A program made the position numbers and the translations under genes. 64,000 nucleotides of DNA, from the NCBI RefSeq assembly GCF_943192905.1, contig NZ_CALPCC010000012.1, positions 1 through 64,000 on the forward strand, read 5' to 3'. This DNA comes from Adlercreutzia murintestinalis (GTDB lineage: Bacteria; Actinomycetota; Coriobacteriia; Coriobacteriales; Eggerthellaceae). Every line of letters starts with the position of its first letter. Position 1 is the stretch's first letter. Below, piece by piece: positions 1-29,443 of this stretch. The notes under the pieces were generated by a model. That model was not told the DNA's origin and ran no database searches. It was given only the letters and a program-made list of their open reading frames with translations.

Positions 1-405
1 ATGGATGAGCCCGATGCAATACCGCAAGTCTTTAGGATATGCGGCCTAGGGTGTCCAGGAATTCGTCCGGAGCCCCCACGCAATGTGGCAATGGACATTG
101 TGGAAGAGGCGCGCGAAGTCTCAACAAGAGAACCGGTAGTTGTGGCTTTCTATACGGATGACAACGATCCTCTGCATTGCTTCATACCTTACTACAGCAC
201 GACCGAGCACCTCACCACACGACCAACCAAAATCGAACTACGGTCATGGTGCATCTTGGGCTTTACAGGAACAGTACAAATGAGGAGTGACTTCGAAGAA
301 ATTTTTGACAACGGCAAAGATGAGCGATTCTATCTTGATATAGTTATCGATATTGAACTGATCGATGGGGAATGGAAGATCGTAAAGACCGCAGCGATTA
401 TCTAG
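1..405 (+). CDS. Family B array protein, copy 0, N-terminus replaced
   Basis: Residues from about 28 (NVAM) to the end match the other family B proteins of this array closely (ending in IELIDGEWKIVKT). The first 27 residues do not match: the transmembrane/signal segment of the other copies is absent. At DNA level similarity to the other copies begins abruptly near base 77. The frame is open from base 1, so the gene may start outside the window and be fused to something upstream, or it may be a 5'-truncated remnant created by recombination. Family role unknown; without the anchor it would not be exported like its siblings. Confidence 0.55.
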   Translation: MDEPDAIPQVFRICGLGCPGIRPEPPRNVAMDIVEEAREVSTREPVVVAFYTDDNDPLHCFIPYYSTTEHLTTRPTKIELRSWCILGFTGTVQMRSDFEEIFDNGKDERFYLDIVIDIELIDGEWKIVKTAAII

Positions 406-608
406 CACATCCCATCGGTATCACACGAAGATTCGCTATGATGTGCATCAGTTCATCTGTTGCTGATGAATAACCTTTGGGAGGCTCTGTGGGTTCAAGA
501 TGTCTCTCTGCTTGCAAGATTAAGATTAACGATATTCGTTATAATGAGCGAGGTTTGCCACAAGAGCAACAACACCCTCCCATTGGCCACTAGAGAAGCT
601 CCATATCA
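406..608 (+). repeat. Array intergenic repeat block, copy 1
   Basis: This gene-free block recurs almost unchanged at 3763-3966 and 5870-6073, and in shortened form at 2450-2584. It holds a CATCAG...CTGATG inverted repeat, the operator-like palindrome and -10 box described separately, and ends with a conserved stretch (AGAGAAGCTCCATATCA) leading into an ATGAAAGCAGC start. The conservation of non-coding DNA shows that whole gene-plus-leader units were duplicated. Confidence 0.85.
527..545 (+). promoter_or_regulatory. Palindrome overlapping -10 box, copy 1
   Basis: Perfect inverted repeat TAACGA-TAT-TCGTTA (527-541) overlaps a consensus TATAAT (540-545) upstream of the first family A gene. No good -35 lies at 16-18 bp; TTGCAA at 512-517 is 22 bp away. 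This layout suggests a promoter controlled by a DNA-binding protein. The same element occurs at three more sites. Confidence 0.6.
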
Positions 609-1379
609 ATGAAAGCAGCTATATCTTTTTATCCTCATCGTCTTTATTGGGGAACATGCGCAGGTGATTGGGATTGCAACTACTGTCTCACTCTTGACAT
701 AGCCCGTGACCGAGCTTTGATCTGCTCGAATGCGGATGGCTTTCTTTCACTTGCATCTGAATGTATAACATACGCTCAGCCAGCGATGGATAATCAAAAC
801 CACACTCATCTCGATAATTTCTTTCCTTTTGAAACAGAAAGCAATGGAACGCTCACATTCCTACACAAGAAAGAGGTGATCGACAACAAGTGGCGCATCG
901 CCGGAAAGGCTGTCGCAGCATTCGGAGGTGATGCGGCTGTTGACGAGCTGGTCGAGATCGGAGATACCTTCTTGCGCTCTGACCCAGAGGCCGCATCAAC
1001 AACAGGCTCTCTTGAAACAGAAGATATACGATCGATCCCTCCCCTTCCCATGAGAGACGCATTCGTCGAATACACTCCCTGCGATGCAGATGGTGTTTTT
1101 GAGCACAAGATGGAGATCGAAGGGTATCTTCTCATGAAGGTAGACCGTGACGACGCATACTTCGAAGGAGACGATCTAGGTCTTTTAAGCCTTGCAAGCA
1201 TCTTTGTTTCTATGGCACAACCCAATATGCCAGAAGAAGGCATGCTTGCCTTGGATGCGGATGCTTTTGCTCCAGGCTCCAATGGGCACCTGGAGCTCAT
1301 GCGCATCGATACCTGGCCTCAATGGAACCTCACACGAAGTGATGCGATACCCGAAGCATTCAAGCGGGGTGAGGTCTGA
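609..1379 (+). CDS. Family A protein 1, double Imm32-like domains
   Basis: A 256-aa soluble protein with no signal or membrane segment. It contains an internal duplication: residues 27-90 (D-x5-R..NADGFLSLAS...YAQPAM...HTHLD...GTLTF) and 174-236 (DR...GDDLGLLSLAS...MAQPNM...GSNGHLELM). The shared plan, a glycine-leucine helix then a beta strand after a Ser/Gly turn, resembles Imm32-type immunity proteins of polymorphic toxin systems; that link is by eye only. Start chosen at ATGAAAGCAGC because it is shared by all copies; the RBS is weak (AGAGAAG). The family B gene follows after 2 bp. The C-terminal half is almost identical in all four copies, the N-terminal half differs. Confidence 0.75.
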   Translation: MKAAISFYPHRLYWGTCAGDWDCNYCLTLDIARDRALICSNADGFLSLASECITYAQPAMDNQNHTHLDNFFPFETESNGTLTFLHKKEVIDNKWRIAGKAVAAFGGDAAVDELVEIGDTFLRSDPEAASTTGSLETEDIRSIPPLPMRDAFVEYTPCDADGVFEHKMEIEGYLLMKVDRDDAYFEGDDLGLLSLASIFVSMAQPNMPEEGMLALDADAFAPGSNGHLELMRIDTWPQWNLTRSDAIPEAFKRGEV

Positions 1380-1381
1380 CG

Positions 1382-1801
1382 ATGACACCGCACACCAAAC
1401 GCACTGTGGCCCTTGTATGCAGCGCCCTATTTATATGCCTGATAGTAGGTGCGCTTTTCCTCTATACACACAATGTGGCAATGGACATTGTGGAAGAGGC
1501 TCGCGAAGTCTCAACAAGAGATCCTGTAGCCGTGAACAGTAATGTGTACACGGACGATGATGATCCGATGCGCTGTTTCATACCTTTCTACAGCACGACT
1601 AATTATTTCACTGAACGACCAATGGAAATTGAGCTACGCTCATGGTGGATCTTAGGCTTTACGGGAGCAGTTGAAACAGAGTCTGTTATTGGAATCATGC
1701 GCGATAACGGAACCGCAGATCAATTCAACCTCGATGTAATCATCGACATCGAACTGATCGATGGGGAGTGGAAGATCGTAAAGACCACAGCAATCACCTA
1801 G
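1382..1801 (+). CDS. Family B protein 1, membrane-anchored
   Basis: A 139-aa protein with a single N-terminal hydrophobic segment (residues about 8-29) and a short positively charged start (TKR), so it is probably an uncleaved membrane anchor with an extracytoplasmic domain. The domain ends in IDIELIDGEWKIVKTTAI, which looks like the last strands of an NTF2-like fold, but no family is recognised with certainty. It begins 2 bp after the family A stop and is surely co-transcribed. This copy carries a small insertion (VNSNVYTDD) relative to copies 2 and 3. Role unknown; the strict A-B pairing suggests a joint function on both sides of the membrane. Confidence 0.75.
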   Translation: MTPHTKRTVALVCSALFICLIVGALFLYTHNVAMDIVEEAREVSTRDPVAVNSNVYTDDDDPMRCFIPFYSTTNYFTERPMEIELRSWWILGFTGAVETESVIGIMRDNGTADQFNLDVIIDIELIDGEWKIVKTTAIT

Positions 1802-1907
1802 TGCATCCCATCAGTCTCTTACGAAGATTCGCTATGACGTATATCAGGTCATCTGTTGCTGATGAATAACCATTGGAAGGCTCCATAGGCTCATGATGCC
1901 TTATTGC

Positions 1908-1937
1908 TTGCAACATTCACAGGGTAGCAGAAATAAT
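1908..1937 (+). promoter_or_regulatory. Candidate promoter for the 157-aa membrane protein
   Basis: TTGCAA (1908-1913), 18-bp spacer, AATAAT (1932-1937). The surrounding 1802-1975 segment is a diverged copy of the array repeat that has lost the TAACGA palindrome, so this gene may escape the control acting on the family A genes. Confidence 0.35.
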
Positions 1938-1975
1938 GCGACAGGATTTTAGGAATAGACTTCGGGAGATACAAA

Positions 1976-2449
1976 ATGGATCAAGAGGAAAGGCTGTTAC
2001 GTGCCTTCGTTGAGGGCAACGCCGCCCAAGGATGCGATCATTCACGCAACACAGAAGTCCTTCTTCAGGGCTTACGATCCGAACGAAGCTCAAATGACGC
2101 TGATTTTCTCTTGGGCCCCCTGTATTGGGGATACCGAAAGTGCCTCATCGAAGCGATACCTCTGATCGTCCTTTTCGGATTCGTTGCCCTTCTCTTCGGA
2201 TGGCTATGCGCTCCTATCGGTCCTTTCCTGCTCTATTTCATTCCTGCATTCTTTTTCTTTCCAGTCTATCGCGCGCGGGCAAAGCGCGTGATACGCACAG
2301 CTCTCAAAAAGAACTTCAAGACCGACGATGAATTGATCGCATATGTCAGGAGACGAGGCGGCACGAGCATCTGGTATGCCTTTATATCAGGCATACTGTT
2401 CATGGCGATCATTGCTTTTGGCGTCATCGTTATTGTTGGCGCTAGATAG
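1976..2449 (+). CDS. Small multi-pass membrane protein of unknown function
   Basis: A 157-aa protein with a soluble N-terminus (about 50 residues), a long hydrophobic stretch at residues 55-97 that fits two helices, and a third helix at residues 131-155. A good RBS (GGGAG) precedes the ATG. It weakly recalls DUF2628-type proteins (short soluble head, aromatic YWGYRK before clustered helices), but I do not claim membership. It sits between two A-B units with its own candidate promoter and has no second copy in the window. Function unknown. Confidence 0.7.
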   Translation: MDQEERLLRAFVEGNAAQGCDHSRNTEVLLQGLRSERSSNDADFLLGPLYWGYRKCLIEAIPLIVLFGFVALLFGWLCAPIGPFLLYFIPAFFFFPVYRARAKRVIRTALKKNFKTDDELIAYVRRRGGTSIWYAFISGILFMAIIAFGVIVIVGAR

Positions 2450-2584
2450 TTTTCAAGGGTTTAGATAGGCTCAAGATGCACCATTGCTCACAAGATCAAG
2501 ATTAACGATATTCGTTATAATGAGCGAGGTTTGCCACAAGAGCAATAACACCCTCCCATTGGCCACTAGAGAAGCTCCATATCA
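2450..2584 (+). repeat. Array intergenic repeat block, copy 2 (shortened)
   Basis: Shorter version of the repeat at 406-608. The last roughly 85 bases, from the TAACGA palindrome to the ATGAAAGCAGC start, are nearly identical to copy 1; the first part has diverged and lacks the CATCAG...CTGATG element. Confidence 0.8.
2503..2521 (+). promoter_or_regulatory. Palindrome overlapping -10 box, copy 2
   Basis: TAACGA-TAT-TCGTTA (2503-2517) overlapping TATAAT (2516-2521), identical to copy 1, upstream of the second family A gene. Confidence 0.6.
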
Positions 2585-3346
2585 ATGAAAGCAGCTATAC
2601 CTTATTTTCTATACAACATCTACCAATCTGTTGGATACGCATGGGATGATGATTGCTATCTTTCAATAGATATGGCAAACGACCGCTGCCTCATCTGCGC
2701 GAATGCGGAAGGGTTTCTTTTTCTTGCTATTACCTGTGTGTCGTTCGCGCATCCGATCATGAAAGATTGGGATGATATAAGCTACAGCGATTTCTTTCCA
2801 TGCCAAGAGCGAACACGCGGAGCGCTAATAATCATGCGAAGAAAGGAAGTGGACGACAACGGTTGCTTCTTCGTTGACGATCGCGTCCTTTCTGCGTTTG
2901 GCGGAGAGGCGGCCTACAATGAGATATATGAACTGGCACTAGATGTAACAGCAGCTGCTACCACTGAAAAGCACGAAGCTGAGCAACCTCAAGACGTGCC
3001 TTATTACCCTCCAGCACGCACAGCTTTCGTTGAGTATTTGCCCTGCGATGCGCAGGGCAACTTCAAAGACGACTTCGATCTGCATGGCCATCTCAAGCTG
3101 GAGGTAACTGCCAAAGAGAGCGCATACCTCATCGGGGATGATCTAGGGCTTCTTAGCCTTGCAAGCATCTTCGTTTCCATGGCACAGCCCAATATGCCAG
3201 AAGAAGGCATGCTCATCTTGGATGCGGATGCTTTTGCTCCAGGCTCATATGGGCACCTTGAGCTCATGCGCATCGATACCTGGCCTCAATGGAACCTCAC
3301 ACGAAGTGATGCGATACCCGAAGCATTCAGACAGGATAAAGATTGA
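2585..3346 (+). CDS. Family A protein 2, double Imm32-like domains
   Basis: A 253-aa family A member with the same double-domain layout as copy 1: N-terminal domain with NAEGFLFLAITCVSFAHPIM, C-terminal domain with GDDLGLLSLASIFVSMAQP. It is closest to copy 4 (6074-6835): the two share almost the whole sequence except for short patches around residues 35-40, 61-75 and 170-180. Its C-terminal 70 residues are practically identical to copies 1 and 3 although the N-terminal domain is quite different, which suggests mosaic evolution by recombination. The stop overlaps the ATG of family B copy 2. Confidence 0.75.
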   Translation: MKAAIPYFLYNIYQSVGYAWDDDCYLSIDMANDRCLICANAEGFLFLAITCVSFAHPIMKDWDDISYSDFFPCQERTRGALIIMRRKEVDDNGCFFVDDRVLSAFGGEAAYNEIYELALDVTAAATTEKHEAEQPQDVPYYPPARTAFVEYLPCDAQGNFKDDFDLHGHLKLEVTAKESAYLIGDDLGLLSLASIFVSMAQPNMPEEGMLILDADAFAPGSYGHLELMRIDTWPQWNLTRSDAIPEAFRQDKD

Positions 3347-3762
3347 TGATGCCAAATCAAACCAAACGCACTGTGGCCCTTGTATGCAGCGCTCTTGCCA
3401 TATGCCTGATCGCAGGCGCGCTTTTTGTCTATACACGCAATGTGGCAATGGGCGTTGTGGAAGAGGCGCGCGAAGTCTCAACAAGAGAACCGGTAGTTGT
3501 GGCTTTCTATAGGGACGAAAACGATCCTCTGCGTTGTTTCTTACCTTACTACAGCACGACCGAGCATCTCACTAGACGGCCAACCAAAATCGAACTACGG
3601 TCATGGTACATTTTGGGCTTTACAGGAACCGTACAAGTGAGGAGTGACTTTATAAAAATCTCTGATAGTGGCAAAGAGGAGCAATACTATCTTGATATAG
3701 CCATCGACATCGAACTGATCGATGGAGAGTGGAAAATCGTAAAGACCACAGCAATCACCTAG
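3346..3762 (+). CDS. Family B protein 2, membrane-anchored
   Basis: A 138-aa family B protein with an N-terminal TKR-hydrophobic anchor and an extracytoplasmic domain ending IELIDGEWKIVKTTAI. The ATG at 3346 overlaps the family A stop as ATGA, the classic arrangement for translational coupling; a second ATG follows directly and a TTG precedes it in frame. It is nearly identical to copy 3 but complete, so copy 2 is the best reference for the intact family B protein. Confidence 0.75.
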   Translation: MMPNQTKRTVALVCSALAICLIAGALFVYTRNVAMGVVEEAREVSTREPVVVAFYRDENDPLRCFLPYYSTTEHLTRRPTKIELRSWYILGFTGTVQVRSDFIKISDSGKEEQYYLDIAIDIELIDGEWKIVKTTAIT

Positions 3763-3966
3763 TGCATCCCATCAGTCTCTTACGAAGATTCACTATGATG
3801 TGCATCAGTTCATCTGTTGCTGATGAATAACCTTTGGAAGGCTCTGTGGGTTCAAGATGTCTCTCTGCTTGCAAGATTAAGATTAACGATATTCGTTATA
3901 ATGGACAAGGTTTGTTATGGGAGCATTGCTACCATTCCCATTCGCCTCTAGAGAAGCTCCATATCA
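3763..3966 (+). repeat. Array intergenic repeat block, copy 3
   Basis: Near-identical to 406-608 in the first two thirds. Downstream of the TATAAT box it diverges (ATGGACAAGG...) and matches copy 4 better, then returns to the common GAGAAGCTCCATATCA-ATGAAAGCAGC end. Here it leads into a lipoprotein gene rather than a family A gene. Confidence 0.85.
3884..3902 (+). promoter_or_regulatory. Palindrome overlapping -10 box, copy 3
   Basis: TAACGA-TAT-TCGTTA (3884-3898) overlapping TATAAT (3897-3902), upstream of the lipoprotein gene. Confidence 0.6.
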
Positions 3967-4653
3967 ATGAAAGCAGCTTATCATACGTTCATCCACAGTA
4001 AGAAAGCTAACGCATCCGGTTCGCATGGATGCTTGAAGTTTCTACGCAGCGATATCTGGTCCGCATGCCATCTCGGGCGCAGCAATGTCCTATCAAAGGC
4101 CACCTTTTTCCTTGTCTGCACAGCCCTTCTTACTCTCTTCCTTGCAACAGGATGCTCTCGTGTGCTCTTCAATGAAGAAGAGGCAGCCGACGATGCCGCC
4201 AACACCATCCTTCAAACTATCGAAGAGAATGATCTGAGCATCCTTGCTCCCATGCTTGCCCCCTGTGCTACTGAAGCCGCTGACTTACAAGAAGGCCTAT
4301 CGTATGCCCATAGCTTGCTCGATGGGCCGATCGTTTCTATCGAGCGGCGCGGCACAAGTTATGGCAGCGCCACACGTGGTCTTCTGAGGTCGAAAAGCAT
4401 CCTTGGTGGATATGACATCGCGACTGAAAATCAGGAATACAGGCTTTGCTTCGAATACTACCCATACAACACCATCGATGATTCGAAGGAAGGGATCTGC
4501 TGCGTGTACTTTGAAACGCAAGAAACTTACCAGGGAAGCAGCAAGGCTCCAGATGGACTATGGCATTATGGTGCACCCTACGAACGCCCAGGTATCTATT
4601 ATCCTCGCTGGCAAGTCCCACAAGACAAGTTTGCATCAGAAGCAGCCTCGTAG
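3967..4653 (+). CDS. Lipoprotein, DUF5104-like, with family A-type start
   Basis: A 228-aa frame. A hydrophobic stretch and lipobox (LFLATGC, cysteine at residue 63) mark a lipoprotein signal, but 40 or so residues precede it, far more than a normal n-region. The first codons (ATGAAAGCAGCT) and everything upstream are the family A leader, so the gene appears to have been joined to a duplicated family A 5' end; the true start may be a later TTG (4033). The mature part (ADDAANTILQTIEENDLS...LLDGPIVSIERRG) resembles the DUF5104 lipoprotein family. The family A copy 3 start follows closely (gap 32 bp), suggesting a three-gene unit. Confidence 0.65.
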   Translation: MKAAYHTFIHSKKANASGSHGCLKFLRSDIWSACHLGRSNVLSKATFFLVCTALLTLFLATGCSRVLFNEEEAADDAANTILQTIEENDLSILAPMLAPCATEAADLQEGLSYAHSLLDGPIVSIERRGTSYGSATRGLLRSKSILGGYDIATENQEYRLCFEYYPYNTIDDSKEGICCVYFETQETYQGSSKAPDGLWHYGAPYERPGIYYPRWQVPQDKFASEAAS

Positions 4654-4685
4654 AGCATCACATGCGTAGTTTGAGAGACAAGTAT

Positions 4686-5453
4686 ATGCAGGCAGCGATC
4701 CCATTCATACCGCATCGCCAATATGACTGGATACGCTCCTTTCGCTATAACACAGAACACGTAACCTTAGACATAGCAGGAGACCGAACCCTGATATGCG
4801 GCAATGCAGATGGCTTTCTTTTGCTTGCCTCAAGGTGTATCACCTTCGCTCAACCAGCGATAAACGACTCATCCCATATTCATCTCGATGCCTTTTCCTT
4901 TTTCGAGCCGGGATGCAAAGGTTCCTTCACTATCCTGAGAAACAAAGAGATCGTTGATGGTCGGCAATTCATTAGCGAAAAGGTTGCTTTGGCATTCGGA
5001 GGTGATGCGGCTGTTGACGAGCTGGTCGAGATCGGAGATACCTTCTTGCGCTCTGACCCAGAGGCCGCATCAACAACAGGCTCTCTTGAAACAGAAGATG
5101 TGCACGCTATCCCTCAACTTCCCATGCGAGACGCATTCGTCGAATACACTCCCTGCGATGCAGATGGTATCTTCGAGCACAGGATGGAGATCGAAGGGTA
5201 TCTTCTCATGAAGGTAGACCGTGACGACGCATACTTCGAAGGAGACGATCTAGGTCTTTTAAGCCTTGCGAGCATCTTCGTTTCTATGGCACAGCCTAAT
5301 ATGCCAGAAGAAGGCATGCTCATCTTGGATGCGGATGTTTTTGCCCCTGGCTCATATGGGCACTTAGAGCTCATGCGCATCGATACCTGGCCTCAATGGA
5401 ACCTCACACGAAGTGATGCGATACCCGAAGCATTCAAGCGGGGTGAGATCTGA
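4686..5453 (+). CDS. Family A protein 3, double Imm32-like domains
   Basis: A 255-aa family A protein. The frame opens far upstream inside the lipoprotein gene, but the family start motif (MQAAIPF, matching MKAAISF of copy 1) fixes the ATG at 4686. The N-terminal domain diverges from copy 1, whereas from residue about 105 onward (FGGDAAVDELVEIGDTFLR) the two are almost identical. This copy alone lacks its own palindrome promoter and must depend on the lipoprotein transcript. The family B copy 3 follows after 2 bp. Confidence 0.75.
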   Translation: MQAAIPFIPHRQYDWIRSFRYNTEHVTLDIAGDRTLICGNADGFLLLASRCITFAQPAINDSSHIHLDAFSFFEPGCKGSFTILRNKEIVDGRQFISEKVALAFGGDAAVDELVEIGDTFLRSDPEAASTTGSLETEDVHAIPQLPMRDAFVEYTPCDADGIFEHRMEIEGYLLMKVDRDDAYFEGDDLGLLSLASIFVSMAQPNMPEEGMLILDADVFAPGSYGHLELMRIDTWPQWNLTRSDAIPEAFKRGEI

Positions 5454-5455
5454 CG

Positions 5456-5869
5456 ATGACACCGCGCACCAAACGCACTGTGGCCCTTATATGCAGCGCT
5501 CTTGTCATATGCCTGATAGCAGGCGCACTTTTTGTCTATACACGCAATGTAGCAATGAGCGTTGTGGAAGAGGCGCGCGAAGTCTCAACAAGAGAACCGG
5601 TAGCTGTGGTTTTCTATACGGATGACAACGATCCTCTGCGTTGTTTCTTACCTTACTACAGCACGACCGAGCATCTCGCTAGACGGCCAACCAAAATCGA
5701 ACTACGGTCATGGTACATTTTGGGCTTTACAGGAACAGTACAAGTGAGGAGTGACTTTATAAAAATCTCTGATAGTGGCAAAGAGGAGTAATACTATCTT
5801 GATATAGTCATCGATATTGAACTGATCGATGGAGAATGGAAGATCGTAAAGACCGCAGCGATTATCTAG
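5456..5869 (+). pseudogene. Family B copy 3, interrupted by an in-frame stop
   Basis: The frame matches copy 2 nearly base for base, but a CAA glutamine codon has become TAA at 5789-5791. The encoded product is 111 aa; the remaining 26 codons (YYLDIVIDIELIDGEWKIVK...) continue in the same frame to a TAG at 5867-5869. The loss removes the conserved C-terminal strands of the domain. The change is a single substitution without frameshift, so it is recent or is tolerated because sister copies exist. Confidence 0.75.
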
Positions 5870-6073
5870 CACATCCCATCGGTATCACACGAAGATTCGC
5901 TATGATGTGCATCAGTTCATCTGTTGCTGATGAATAACCTTTGGAAGGCTCTGTGGGTTCAAGATGTCTCTCTGCTTGCAAGATTAAGATTAACGATATT
6001 CGTTATAATGGGTGAGGTTTGTCATAGGAACATTGCTACCATTCCCATTGGCCCCTAGAGAAGCCCAGAGCCC
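5870..6073 (+). repeat. Array intergenic repeat block, copy 4
   Basis: The 5' part equals copy 1 (CACATCCCATCGGTATCACACG), the part after the -10 box equals copy 3 (ATTGCTACCATTCCCATT). The end before the gene differs slightly (GAGAAGCCCAGAGCCC-ATG). Confidence 0.85.
5991..6009 (+). promoter_or_regulatory. Palindrome overlapping -10 box, copy 4
   Basis: TAACGA-TAT-TCGTTA (5991-6005) overlapping TATAAT (6004-6009), upstream of the fourth family A gene. Confidence 0.6.
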
Positions 6074-6835
6074 ATGAAAGCAGCTATACCTTATTTTCTC
6101 TACAACATCTATCAATCTGTTGGATACGCATGGGATGACGATTGCTATCTTTCTGTAGATGTCATCAACGATCGAGGCTTGATCTGCGCGAATGCGGAAG
6201 GGTTTCTTTTTCTTGCTATTACCTGTGTGTCGTTCGCGCATCCGATCATGAAAGATTGGGATAGTGTAGGTCTAAATGATACATTTCCGTGTCAAGAGCG
6301 GACACATGGAACATTATCGATCGCGCGCAGAAAGGAAATAGACGACAACGGTTGCTTCTTCGTTGACGATCGCGTCCTTTCTGCGTTTGGCGGAGAGGCG
6401 GCCTACGATGAGATATATGAACTGGCACTAGATGCAACAGCAGCTGCTACCACTGAGAAGCACGGAGCTGAGCAATCTAAAAACGTGCCTTATTACCCTC
6501 CAACACGCACAGCTTTCGTTGAGTATTGCCCCTGCGATGCACAGGGCAACTTCAAAGACGACTTCGATCTGCATGGCCATCTCAAGCTACAAGCAGCAGA
6601 CGGGCAAAGTGCATATCTCAGTGGAGATGATCTAGGGCTTCTAAGCCTTGCGAGCATCTTCGTTTCTATGGCACAGCCTAATATGCCAGAAGAAGGCATG
6701 CTCATCTTGGATGCGGATGTTTTTGCCCCTGGCTCATCCGGACACCTAGAACTCATGCGTATCGATACCTGGCCTCAATGGAACCTCACACGAAGTGACG
6801 CGATACCCGAAGCATTCAAGCGGGGTGAAGCCTAG
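6074..6835 (+). CDS. Family A protein 4, double Imm32-like domains
   Basis: A 253-aa family A member, nearly a twin of copy 2. Differences cluster in short patches (DVINDRGLICANAEG, DSVGLNDTF, TLSIARRKEI, LQAADGQSAYLSG), mostly in predicted loop and strand positions, while the last 65 residues are the common sequence. It is the only copy without a family B partner: 35 bp after its stop begins the convergent HTH gene. It therefore marks the right-hand end of the array. Confidence 0.75.
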   Translation: MKAAIPYFLYNIYQSVGYAWDDDCYLSVDVINDRGLICANAEGFLFLAITCVSFAHPIMKDWDSVGLNDTFPCQERTHGTLSIARRKEIDDNGCFFVDDRVLSAFGGEAAYDEIYELALDATAAATTEKHGAEQSKNVPYYPPTRTAFVEYCPCDAQGNFKDDFDLHGHLKLQAADGQSAYLSGDDLGLLSLASIFVSMAQPNMPEEGMLILDADVFAPGSSGHLELMRIDTWPQWNLTRSDAIPEAFKRGEA

Positions 6836-6870: not shown

Positions 6871-7083
6871 TCAGTCTTCGTCGGGCAGATACTCGAAGAT
6901 ATCCCCAGGCTGGCATTCTAGCTCGGCGCACAGCCCCTCTAACGTGGAGAATCGAATGGCCTTGATCTTGCCCGTGCGGATGCGCGAAAGATTGACCGGC
7001 GACAAGTTGATGCGTGCCGCCAATTCATTGACGGATATCTTCCTGTCAGCCATCACGCGGTCAAGTCTTGAGATTATCGCCAT
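6871..7083 (-). CDS. Short Cro/C1-type HTH regulator
   Basis: A 70-aa protein that is almost only a helix-turn-helix domain of the XRE/HTH_26 type (MADRKISVNELAARINLS..NLSRIRTGKIKAIRFSTLEGLCAELECQPGDIFEYLP). The final CQPGDIFEY is typical of small regulators encoded with DUF2975 membrane proteins. Its start lies 10 bp after the stop of that upstream gene, so the pair is co-transcribed. It probably represses its own operon. Whether it also acts on the array palindromes is unknown. Confidence 0.85.
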   Translation of the reverse strand: MAIISRLDRVMADRKISVNELAARINLSPVNLSRIRTGKIKAIRFSTLEGLCAELECQPGDIFEYLPDED

Positions 7084-7093
7084 CCGAGGTGCC

Positions 7094-7630
7094 TCATACC
7101 GTATCGTCGCTCATTTCTTGTAAAAGACTACCATACCGGAAGATGAACGAGACACAGTAGATCGCAACGGCGAAGAACAGAGCGCCGATATTCACGAACG
7201 ATGTCGGAGTGGGTGAAACATCACCACCTGCAACACCGATCTCGTAACCAGCAATGACGATCCCTCCATAGAAGTCAATACCGAATACTAATTCGATGAG
7301 TGCAAAAAGAACCAGCAGAACACTGATGACCCTCAATCGAAGGACTTGCGATCTTTCAAATGGTCGTCCCTTTTCTGCTTCGGCGAAGATCTTCATTACA
7401 CAATAGAGAATGGCAATGATATCCAGACCAAGAAAACCCGCATACAACAAGCCCCCGAACGGAACAGAAGACCTCGGATCGATCATACCGAATGCCAACA
7501 ATCCTACGAAGAGAAGCAAGATAATCGCAAATACCACAAGCAAGACAGTAGCAACGACCTTTATCGCCCGGCATGCCTTCCGAACCTTGCCAATCTCATC
7601 ATCAAGCACTATCGCCTCTTCGCCGCTCAT
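7094..7630 (-). CDS. DUF2975 four-helix membrane protein
   Basis: A 178-aa membrane protein with four hydrophobic segments (about residues 22-48, 58-80, 102-125 and 145-168) and the F(S/A)xxSVLRLRxxS-like stretch after helix 2 (GRPFERSQVLRLRVIS) typical of DUF2975. RBS AGGGAAC. These proteins are usually encoded next to a small HTH regulator, as here, and are thought to modulate it from the membrane; the signal is not known. Confidence 0.8.
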   Translation of the reverse strand: MSGEEAIVLDDEIGKVRKACRAIKVVATVLLVVFAIILLLFVGLLAFGMIDPRSSVPFGGLLYAGFLGLDIIAILYCVMKIFAEAEKGRPFERSQVLRLRVISVLLVLFALIELVFGIDFYGGIVIAGYEIGVAGGDVSPTPTSFVNIGALFFAVAIYCVSFIFRYGSLLQEMSDDTV

Positions 7631-26933: not shown

Positions 26934-28043
26934 CTACCCCGTGTAGCGCTTGAAGACCATGCCAGAATCCACCGCGCGCGGACCCACCACGCCATAGCGC
27001 GAACCGCGAGCATCGATCATCTGGCCGTTGCCCACATACAGACCCACGTGGCTGCTCTTCCAGCAGATATCGCCCGGCTGCGGATCGGATACCACCGGGA
27101 AGCGAGACCCTACCATCGCATAGGTGCTCGAGATAACGCGCCCGTACTGTCCGGTCAGACAGTAGCTGACCAAACCCGAGCAGTCGAACGCATTCGGGCC
27201 GCCAGCGCCCCACACATAGGGCTTGCCCAGATGCTCGTATGCACGCGCGACCGCACCGCTGACACTACCCGCCTGCACGGCGTTGTTGTTATAGTTTCCG
27301 CCGCCGCTGCTGCCGCCGCTGCTGCTGCCGCCGCCGTAATGACCGGTCGACTGCTGCTGGCGTACCGCTGCTGCCGCCGCTGCTGCCGCCGCGCGCTCGC
27401 GCGCCTCTTCCTCTTGGCGCATGAGCTCCTGCACTTCGGCATTCAAGGAGTCGTAGAGGCTCTGATACTGGTTGACGAGCGTCTCAGCCTCGGCCTTGGT
27501 GGCCGCTGCCTGTTCGGCTGCCTCCTTGGCAGCCTGCTCCTGCTCTTCCAGCACGGCCTTCTCGGCTTCCACTTCGGCCTTCAAGTCCTTGGTCTGCTGA
27601 ACCATGGCCGAATCGTTCTCATTCATGTTGTTCAGCACGTCCCAGTTGGTGGTGAATGCCTGGAAACTGGTCGCGCCGAGCAACAGGTCGATGAACGTGG
27701 ACGAACCGGTGCGGTACATGCTGCGCGCACGCGTGCTGAGCTGCTCTTGCAGTCCGCTGATCTGCTCGTTGACCTCAGCGATGCGATTCTCAGCTTCAGC
27801 CACCCGCTCTTCGGCTTGCTGCTGCGTCTCGAGCGCGGTGTAATACTCGTCAGATGCCACATCCAGCTTCTCTTGCATGGAGTTGAGATTATCGAGCGCC
27901 GTTTGCGCTTCGATCTTCTTCTGCGCCGAGGTAACGGCGAAGGCATCGAGCGGATCTGCCCCTACAAGGCAGGTGGCAGCGCCTGCGGCCAGGGCGGTGC
28001 CTACGAAAGCGCGTCTGCTGAGTGCGTTGGTCTGCTCGCTCAT
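26934..28043 (-). CDS. Tat-exported NlpC/P60 peptidase with coiled coil, copy 1
   Basis: A 369-aa protein. The start ATG 28043 follows GAGGAGGG and opens a Tat signal (SRRAFVGTALAAGAATCLVG). Residues 40-230 are a long coiled coil with Ala/Glu/Gln repeats (CwlO/RipA-like), then a Gly/Ser/Asn linker, then an NlpC/P60 domain with catalytic Cys in NAFDCSGLVSYC and His in SSHVGLYVGNGQ. It should cut peptidoglycan stem peptides at septum or wall, with the coiled coil holding it inactive or at a partner. The next minus-strand gene is a close paralogue, so the pair is a tandem duplication. Confidence 0.85.
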   Translation of the reverse strand: MSEQTNALSRRAFVGTALAAGAATCLVGADPLDAFAVTSAQKKIEAQTALDNLNSMQEKLDVASDEYYTALETQQQAEERVAEAENRIAEVNEQISGLQEQLSTRARSMYRTGSSTFIDLLLGATSFQAFTTNWDVLNNMNENDSAMVQQTKDLKAEVEAEKAVLEEQEQAAKEAAEQAAATKAEAETLVNQYQSLYDSLNAEVQELMRQEEEARERAAAAAAAAAVRQQQSTGHYGGGSSSGGSSGGGNYNNNAVQAGSVSGAVARAYEHLGKPYVWGAGGPNAFDCSGLVSYCLTGQYGRVISSTYAMVGSRFPVVSDPQPGDICWKSSHVGLYVGNGQMIDARGSRYGVVGPRAVDSGMVFKRYTG

Positions 28044-28200
28044 AAGTTGGTAGCCCTCCTCGATCGAGCAATCGTGTCGTTGTGCAAACAAATGAGCGAC
28101 GATAGTATCATTGCAGCAACGCGCGAGACGTGCGCTCCACAACTTCTCCAACCGCTGCGCATAACTTCTGCATCGAACGTTCACCCCGTGTACGGGCATG

Positions 28201-28230
28201 AAAAAAGCCCACCGCACGTGCGATGGGCCT
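28201..28230 (-). terminator. Terminator after the second NlpC/P60 gene
   Basis: Minus strand GCCCATCGCAC/GTGCGGTGGGC stem (11 bp, one G-U pair) followed directly by TTTTTT, 24 bp beyond the stop. Confidence 0.85.
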
Positions 28231-28253
28231 TGCCTACACTCTATGTTGTTGCT

Positions 28254-29339
28254 CTAGTAGCGCACGTACACCATATCGGAGGTAACACCACCATAACGAA
28301 CCACATCGCCCGTGCGGGGAGCGTGGATCATCTGGCCACCGCCCACATAAATGCCGCAATGCTGACGCGAGTTGTTGTGCACCACGCACACATCGCCAGG
28401 CTGCGGGTTGGACACGCGCGGCCAGCTGATGTAGTCAGCCGTTGACCAACGGCGCCCGAAGCTGCCCGTCAAGCAATAGCTCACCAGACCCGAGCAGTCG
28501 AACGTATGAGGACCAGCGGCGCCGTACTCGTACGGAATGCCCAAGCAGCCCTGCGCGCGGCTCACCGCGTCGTAGCCAGCGGTAGGCACCTTGCTATCGT
28601 TATAGGAAGGCTTGCTGCTTCCACCGCCGCTCGTGCCACCACCACTGGTGGTACCCGAGGAAATAGCAGCCTGCGCGGCTGCCGCCTGAGCGGCTTCGCG
28701 AGCAGCCTCTTCTTCAGCCAGAAGTTGCTCAACCTCAGCAGAGAGGGAATCGTAGACGGCCTGCTGCTGCGCAACTACCGATTCCGCCTCGTTCTTCTTG
28801 GTCTCGGCCTGCTGCGCTGCTGCTTCGGCTGCTGCCTGCTGCTCTTCCAGCACGACCTTCTGCTCTTCCACTTCCGCCTTGAGGTCCTTGGTCTGCTGGA
28901 CCATCTCAGCGTCGCTCTCGTTCATGTTGTTCAGCACACCCCAGTTGGTGGTGAACGCCTGGAACGTGGTAGCGCCCAAGAGCAGGTCGATGAACGTGGA
29001 TGAACCGGTGCGATACATGCTGCGCGCGCGCACGCCCAGCTGCTCTTGCAGGCCACCGATCTGTTCGGTTGCCTCATCGATGCGGTTCTGCGCTTCGTCA
29101 ACGCGGCCTTCAGCCTCTTCCTGCGCGTCTAATGCGTTGTAGTATTCGTTCGTAGCTACTTCCAGCTTGTCCTGCATGGAATTGAGACTATCGAGCGCTG
29201 CTTGCGCCTCGGCCTTCTTCTGGTCGGACGGGGCGGCAAGAGCAGGAAGCGGATCGGCTGAGATCAGGCACGCGGCACCTGCCATGGCAGCGGTACCCAC
29301 GAAGGCGCGTCTGCTGAGTGCGATGGTATGCTCGCTCAT
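28254..29339 (-). CDS. Tat-exported NlpC/P60 peptidase with coiled coil, copy 2
   Basis: A 361-aa paralogue of the neighbouring gene: Tat signal SRRAFVGTAAMAGAACLISA, nearly the same coiled coil (MYRTGSSTFIDLLLGAT shared exactly), Ser/Gly linker, NlpC/P60 domain with HTFDCSGLVSYC and QHCGIYVGGGQMIHA. The two catalytic domains differ more than the coiled coils (for example around the catalytic His), suggesting different substrates or partners. RBS GGAGGAGGAA. Each copy has its own terminator, so they are transcribed separately. Confidence 0.85.
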   Translation of the reverse strand: MSEHTIALSRRAFVGTAAMAGAACLISADPLPALAAPSDQKKAEAQAALDSLNSMQDKLEVATNEYYNALDAQEEAEGRVDEAQNRIDEATEQIGGLQEQLGVRARSMYRTGSSTFIDLLLGATTFQAFTTNWGVLNNMNESDAEMVQQTKDLKAEVEEQKVVLEEQQAAAEAAAQQAETKKNEAESVVAQQQAVYDSLSAEVEQLLAEEEAAREAAQAAAAQAAISSGTTSGGGTSGGGSSKPSYNDSKVPTAGYDAVSRAQGCLGIPYEYGAAGPHTFDCSGLVSYCLTGSFGRRWSTADYISWPRVSNPQPGDVCVVHNNSRQHCGIYVGGGQMIHAPRTGDVVRYGGVTSDMVYVRY

Positions 29340-29443
29340 AAGTTGAGGTTCCTCCTCCTTCGAGCAAGTTGTGTGTTCGGCAAACATTCGCACTATGATA
29401 GCACGCTGCGCAAAAATGGCAACCGGGCCACGCGAGCCGCGCC

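Follow-up and report, generated by a model that had tools for sequence, protein, structure and literature searches.

A tandem array of double Imm32 genes behind an Rhs toxin gene in Adlercreutzia murintestinalis as a probable heterogeneous polyimmunity locus

Introduction

What kind of locus is the row of paralogous genes with which contig NZ_CALPCC010000012.1 of Adlercreutzia murintestinalis (assembly GCF_943192905.1) begins? The DNA that we analyzed, referred to below as the window, is the first 64,000 nucleotides of this contig (C12) of a 2.04-Mb draft genome, and its base 1 is the first base of the contig. An initial annotation, made from the letters alone, recognized in bases 1 to 6,835 a tandem array of genes for a soluble protein with an internal duplication (A) and for a small membrane-anchored protein (B), and likened it to the immunity loci of polymorphic toxins. 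Polyimmunity loci have been described as closely spaced tandem genes on one strand, usually present once per genome and without intervening toxin genes (PMC3482391), and the likening proved right in kind: the array is very probably best explained as a polyimmunity locus of the heterogeneous type that is linked to the gene for a WapA-like Rhs polymorphic toxin.

Results

The array extends beyond the window. It begins about 3.7 kb to the left of window base 1, on contig C11, behind an Rhs gene, which is followed by about 15 small genes in the same orientation. Every array gene lies on one strand, the gaps between the genes range from -14 to 204 bp, six sets of genes stand behind one 20-bp element, and four A genes are found in the window alone. 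The initial annotation had recommended seeking a toxin gene to the left of base 1; this Rhs gene is such a gene, a WapA-like YD-repeat gene encoding 3144 residues (L007:3729-13163 on C11, minus strand) that is oriented in the same way as the array. Its product contains 45 RHS/YD repeats, an RHS core, a DNRLRE/CBM96 domain, a DUF6531 domain and a short variable tip (PF05593, E 9e-271; TIGR03696, E 4e-15; DNRLRE, E 6e-17), and a signal peptide was recognized by eye. The protein matches solved Rhs toxins, for example Tre23 and Tse5, and its Rhs core is the single one found in the genome. From the Rhs gene toward the junction with C12, C11 carries a gene for a membrane protein (M) that overlaps the Rhs stop codon, the gene A5, two genes for soluble proteins, two further M genes, and the 5' part of a B gene (B0). 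A Pfam/NCBIfam scan of the intervening genes revealed no toxin domains between the immunity genes.

The B gene at the junction had been counted as a truncated copy, one of four. Instead, an IS3-type insertion appears to have divided a single gene and also to have interrupted the assembly. Window bases 1-76 (plus strand), at the contig end, are foreign to B; they are the right-hand end of an insertion sequence (IS) of the IS3 family, consisting of the end of orfB and a 26-bp terminal inverted repeat at 51-76 (GTGTCCAGGAATTCGTCCGGAGCCCC). An inverted copy of this repeat is present at C11:52-77, and these two sites are unique in the genome within three mismatches. In one frame, the C12 end encodes a transposase C-terminus that finishes with MSPMQYRKSLGYAA before the stop codon (also read as WMSPMQYRKSLGYAA before the stop), and a reading frame at the C11 end begins with MYSLEFKK; we take these two frames to be the OrfB and OrfA ends of the IS3-family element. 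The 3' part of B0 follows at 77-405 (plus strand; 82% identity to B2), its 5' part, comprising 30 residues that include the membrane helix, is found at C11:76-165 (minus strand), and the triplet CAC both closes the B sequence to the left of the insertion and opens the sequence to its right, as a 3-bp target duplication. Because the IS ends are found at only these two contig ends, the two halves of B0 carry the 3-bp duplication, and the repeated leader element occurs on only these contigs, C11 and C12 are probably neighbors.

The four A genes described for the window were all recovered, at 609-1379 (A1), 2585-3346 (A2), 4683-5453 (A3, with an ATG at 4686) and 6074-6835 (A4), on the plus strand and with roughly 52-78% identity to the reference copy. 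Their assignment to Imm32, which had been made by eye, is supported by Pfam: A1 (36.4 bits, E 5e-9) and A3 (45.4 bits, E 7.5e-12) exceed the curated cut-off of 27 bits for PF15566, and each is matched in two stretches. A2 (E 0.0024), A4 (E 0.0011) and A5 fall below the cut-off with 18-21 bits (E 4e-4 to 2.4e-3), and these three are 52-57% identical to A3; A2 is also 54% identical to A1. When profiles of the N-terminal and C-terminal halves were compared, they matched with a probability of 90.6 (E 1.3e-6, 66 columns), whereas column-shuffled controls (n=100) reached a probability of at most 1.7, so that the reported internal duplication holds as well. The Imm32 matches, together with halves that match each other far beyond the shuffled controls, indicate that A is a polyimmunity-type protein of two Imm32 domains.

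The distinction between a soluble A and a membrane-anchored B also stands: A, including A1, has no hydrophobic membrane segment, and B is a small protein with a single hydrophobic segment at its N-terminus, a predicted membrane anchor, followed by an outer domain. B1 (1382-1801), B2 (3343-3762, with a likely start at 3349) and B3 (5456-5869), all on the plus strand, were confirmed, and in these three pairs the gap between A and B is 2 bp. B3 has the nonsense codon noted previously, an in-frame TAA at 5789-5791, which we left as found; the frame is open on either side. The tight coupling of A and B was thus correctly observed in three pairs, but strict pairing is too strong a description. A4, the final gene of the array, and A5 have no B partner, and the split B0 comes after membrane-protein genes and not after an A gene. 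These unpaired copies and the stop codon in B3 indicate that pairing is not obligatory.

A and B genes do not make up the whole array. M1 (1976-2449, plus strand) encodes a membrane protein, and the three DUF2628-like M genes on C11 are its paralogues. Two hydrophobic segments are present in M1 and in the other M proteins, with the exception of a 99-residue copy that has one. A further gene encodes a DUF5104 lipoprotein (3967-4653, plus strand; PF17117, E 1.6e-7) with a lipobox, LATGC, recognized by eye. The two soluble proteins encoded on C11, of about 88 and 256 residues, belong to no matched family: Pfam, NCBIfam and PADLOC returned no significant match, and the smaller one, which is not an Imm32 protein, has a weak PHROG match (phrog_1791, E 9e-4; function of that PHROG unknown). 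Both genes, which overlap inside the C11 array at L007:1151-1951 and L007:1908-2246 (minus strand), are candidates for new immunity families. A 112-residue protein from C11 was considered as a single Imm32 domain and ruled out (hhalign probability 0.3).

Two types can be told apart in the first two thirds of the five A genes, whereas the last third mixes them: A1 and A5 share a block with 99% identity but are 41-60% alike further left. The maximum chi-square test with permutation gave p = 0.0005, the floor of the test, in many A triplets. These patterns mark the A copies as mosaics produced by recombination; a similar exchange between immunity paralogues in tandem has been published for esaG and tipC (PMC9484751). 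The reading frame of the DUF5104 lipoprotein opens with the leader and first codons of an A gene (ATGAAAGCAGCT), and from this start region the sets look as if they had been exchanged behind a common leader.

The leader element, TAACGATATTCGTTATAATG, is a 20-bp palindromic sequence with a 6-bp inverted repeat around TAT (TAACGA-TAT-TCGTTA) that overlaps a TATAAT box. It occurs in six exact copies in the genome, each before a gene set: four in the window (527-546, 2503-2522, 3884-3903 and 5991-6010, all on the plus strand) and two on C11. Neither the rest of the genome nor any of the other 137 family genomes contained a copy. We propose that this arrangement is what would be expected for an operator over a -10 box. 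Because a sigma-70 scan showed no excess of promoters (11 versus 10 expected), the leader is called promoter-like solely from its exact recurrence and its TATAAT box. The right border of the array is formed by a convergent gene for an HTH_26 (Cro/C1) regulator at 6871-7083 (minus strand; PF13443, E 2e-22). Together with a gene for a DUF2975 membrane protein it occupies window positions 6871-7630 on the minus strand; this module could be an unrelated common module or a candidate regulator of the leader elements.

No convincing further A or B copies lie outside the locus in the genome, neither protein was found in 59 other genomes, two congeners included, and a B profile matched only its own members in 398 genomes of the class. 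A also had no match in a genome-contig scan, a viral-contig scan, and a plasmid search. In the Protein Data Bank (PDB) the best matches of A and B (E 0.5 and 0.8) are at chance level. A comparison with empty sites was limited by the right-hand flanking gene, which is missing in one congener and located at a contig end in the other.

Imm32 is present in three other genomes of the family (138 genomes scanned). In one of these, G067, which belongs to another genus, the order is an Rhs-AHH gene, DUF1963, DUF2247 (the latter corresponding to Imm38; PMC3482391), a double Imm32 gene, a gene for a 133-residue anchored protein, and a lipoprotein gene. The A-like protein of this genome matches A locally (E 3e-8). 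Its anchored protein ends with GSWKIVRVNVRP, for comparison with GEWKIVKTTAIT in B; the resemblance to B is weak (hhalign probability 17%), and the match of G067 to the B profile is not independent since its row was part of the profile. In a second genome, G065, a short contig carries a gene for an Imm32 protein followed by one for a lipoprotein that is related to the G067 lipoprotein (30% identity, E 2e-12). The related lipoproteins encoded behind Imm32 genes in two family members (L024:6926-8323 and L025:2501-3352) are candidate outer immunity proteins. The third genome, G154, has a lone single-domain Imm32 gene, and no Rhs-like gene was seen within 20 kb of it by inspection by eye, no Pfam scan having been made there.

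Elsewhere in the window, two adjacent paralogous secreted proteins with coiled coils and NlpC/P60-like C-termini (family assigned by eye) are encoded at 26934-29393 on the minus strand.

Discussion

The array resembles the polyimmunity loci of Zhang et al. 2012 (PMC3482391) in its tandem same-strand genes of several families, its short gaps, and its single genomic location. It differs in standing directly behind a full Rhs gene and in the identical leader before six sets. Here double Imm32 dominates, and in that survey Imm32 is not listed among the families that form prominent homogeneous loci or fused proteins (PMC3482391). Moreover, three families of the array (B, M and the lipoprotein) are predicted to reside in or outside the membrane, whereas the immunity proteins surveyed are nearly all cytosolic (PMC3482391). 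Compared with the Imm32 family itself, for which two A copies exceed the curated cut-off, the A proteins carry two domains each and are coupled to a membrane-anchored partner; the partner toxins listed for the family are Ntox12, Ntox37 and Ntox7, whereas the tip found here has no recognized toxin domain.

Several observations weigh against a polyimmunity locus attached to the Rhs gene. Pfam recognizes no C-terminal toxin domain in the resident Rhs tip, and no toxin-immunity match can therefore be named. For B we found neither a family nor a solved relative, and the AlphaFold2 models, with predicted local distance difference test (pLDDT) values of 30 for A and 44 for B, are unusable for fold comparison. 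The link between C11 and C12, draft contigs, is inferred from three independent signs. Finally, the six identical leaders suggest that the sets are transcribed separately, and this contrasts with the probably polycistronic transcription described for polyimmunity loci (PMC3482391).

If the array is a polyimmunity locus, then the Rhs protein would be exported, and its tip would enter or attack neighboring cells. Immunity to the present tip may be conferred by the M protein encoded across the Rhs stop codon. The other immunity genes may have been retained from tips that were earlier or foreign, and their products may bind toxins that arrive, A in the cytosol and B, M and the lipoprotein at the membrane or outside. 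Recombination between the repeated leaders and between the A genes would shuffle the sets and create new A variants, and the identical leaders would allow joint expression of the sets. The locus probably arose as proposed for Vibrio cholerae, where older immunity genes persist after newer tips have replaced their predecessors (PMC5361080). The immunity arrays of the V. cholerae type VI secretion system likewise consist of orphan immunity genes lined up 3' of a toxin locus (PMC5361080); the locus studied here differs in its Rhs/WapA-like gene, the leader repeated with each unit, and the five close paralogues in one genome. WapA/WapI of Bacillus, a wall-associated Rhs/YD toxin with its immunity protein (compare PMC5566331), likewise combines an exported YD-repeat protein bearing a C-terminal tip with immunity genes right behind it, but the present gene encodes 3144 residues with no recognized toxin domain in the tip and is followed by about 15 immunity-type genes instead of one. 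The esaG and tipC paralogues of the type VII secretion system (T7SS) are mosaics exchanged via conserved blocks, and TipC counters TelC, a lipid II phosphatase toxin (PMC9484751); in the array, the system is Rhs and not T7SS, and soluble and anchored genes alternate.

What remains to be explained is the coupling of A and B, which may reflect two layers of immunity to one toxin or mere neighborhood; the unpaired copies speak against a strict unit. According to the first possibility, each A-B pair answers one toxin, which would be intercepted by B on the outer side of the membrane and by A in the cytosol. The 2-bp gap in three pairs is consistent with this, as is the order of a double Imm32 gene and a B-like anchored gene in the other genus. 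Two unlike immunity proteins for one toxin are also known from Tdi5a/Tdi5b (PMC13392607), which are encoded together as A and B are; however, both of these bind one DNase directly, whereas one of the partners here is predicted to lie outside the membrane, and any shared target would be hypothetical. A4 and A5 without B, B0 without an adjoining A, and the stop codon in B3 argue against two layers, and adjacency in a polyimmunity locus is also compatible with immunity to different toxins. We regard the two-layer explanation as possible but doubtful. Its stronger form appears unlikely. In that form, a cytosolic doubled Imm32 and an anchored outer B would be produced together as a two-compartment unit, neither of them dispensable against Rhs tips acting at the membrane or across it, and a single palindromic promoter-operator would be common to all the multiplied and shuffled units.

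An alternative explanation is that the locus is a decaying relic: the toxin tip would no longer carry its active domain, and the immunity genes would be undergoing erosion. The Rhs protein aligns with that of G067 (33% identity, E 7e-22) up to the pre-toxin region and then stops; from the start of the pre-toxin motif, 74 residues are left, compared with 193 in the G067 Rhs-AHH protein, which continues into an AHH nuclease domain (PF14412, E 9.6e-21). The failure of Pfam to detect a toxin domain, the B gene split by an insertion, and the stop codon in another B fit this explanation. However, all five A genes are open, nonsynonymous divergence (dN) is lower than synonymous divergence (dS) in every A pair with a defined dS, and the six leader elements are letter-perfect. 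Furthermore, a tip that is short and hydrophobic could act as a membrane toxin in its own right. The resident tip may be either a short unrecognized toxin, perhaps one acting on membranes, or a tip whose active domain is gone, and decay of the locus as a whole seems improbable to us.

The two-gene coupling and the small membrane protein might also point to a toxin-antitoxin pair, with B as the toxin and A as the antitoxin. This is very unlikely as A is a member of an Imm32 immunity family beside an Rhs toxin, B has a large outer domain, A copies without B exist, and B0 has no adjoining A. An anti-phage cassette array, the defence-related half of the first interpretation, would account for tandem paralogues in variable copies but is hardly credible given that PADLOC matched none of seven array proteins, that PHROG gave one weak match, for a C11 gene, and that the array is linked to the Rhs gene.

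A polyimmunity locus attached to an Rhs gene, the preferred explanation, is of a known kind; new in detail are the double-Imm32 series, the A-B coupling, and the repeated leader element, and a literature search joining immunity genes, polymorphic toxins and Eggerthella returned nothing. The finding would connect a gene array that had no annotation with a form of bacterial warfare that is contact-based or wall-based. The common leader predicts one regulator for the entire immunity stock, and the five Imm32 variants, apparently made by recombination, would provide a compact natural series in which changes in immunity specificity could be mapped. Joint action of A and B would mean that immunity in this organism is split between two compartments of the cell.

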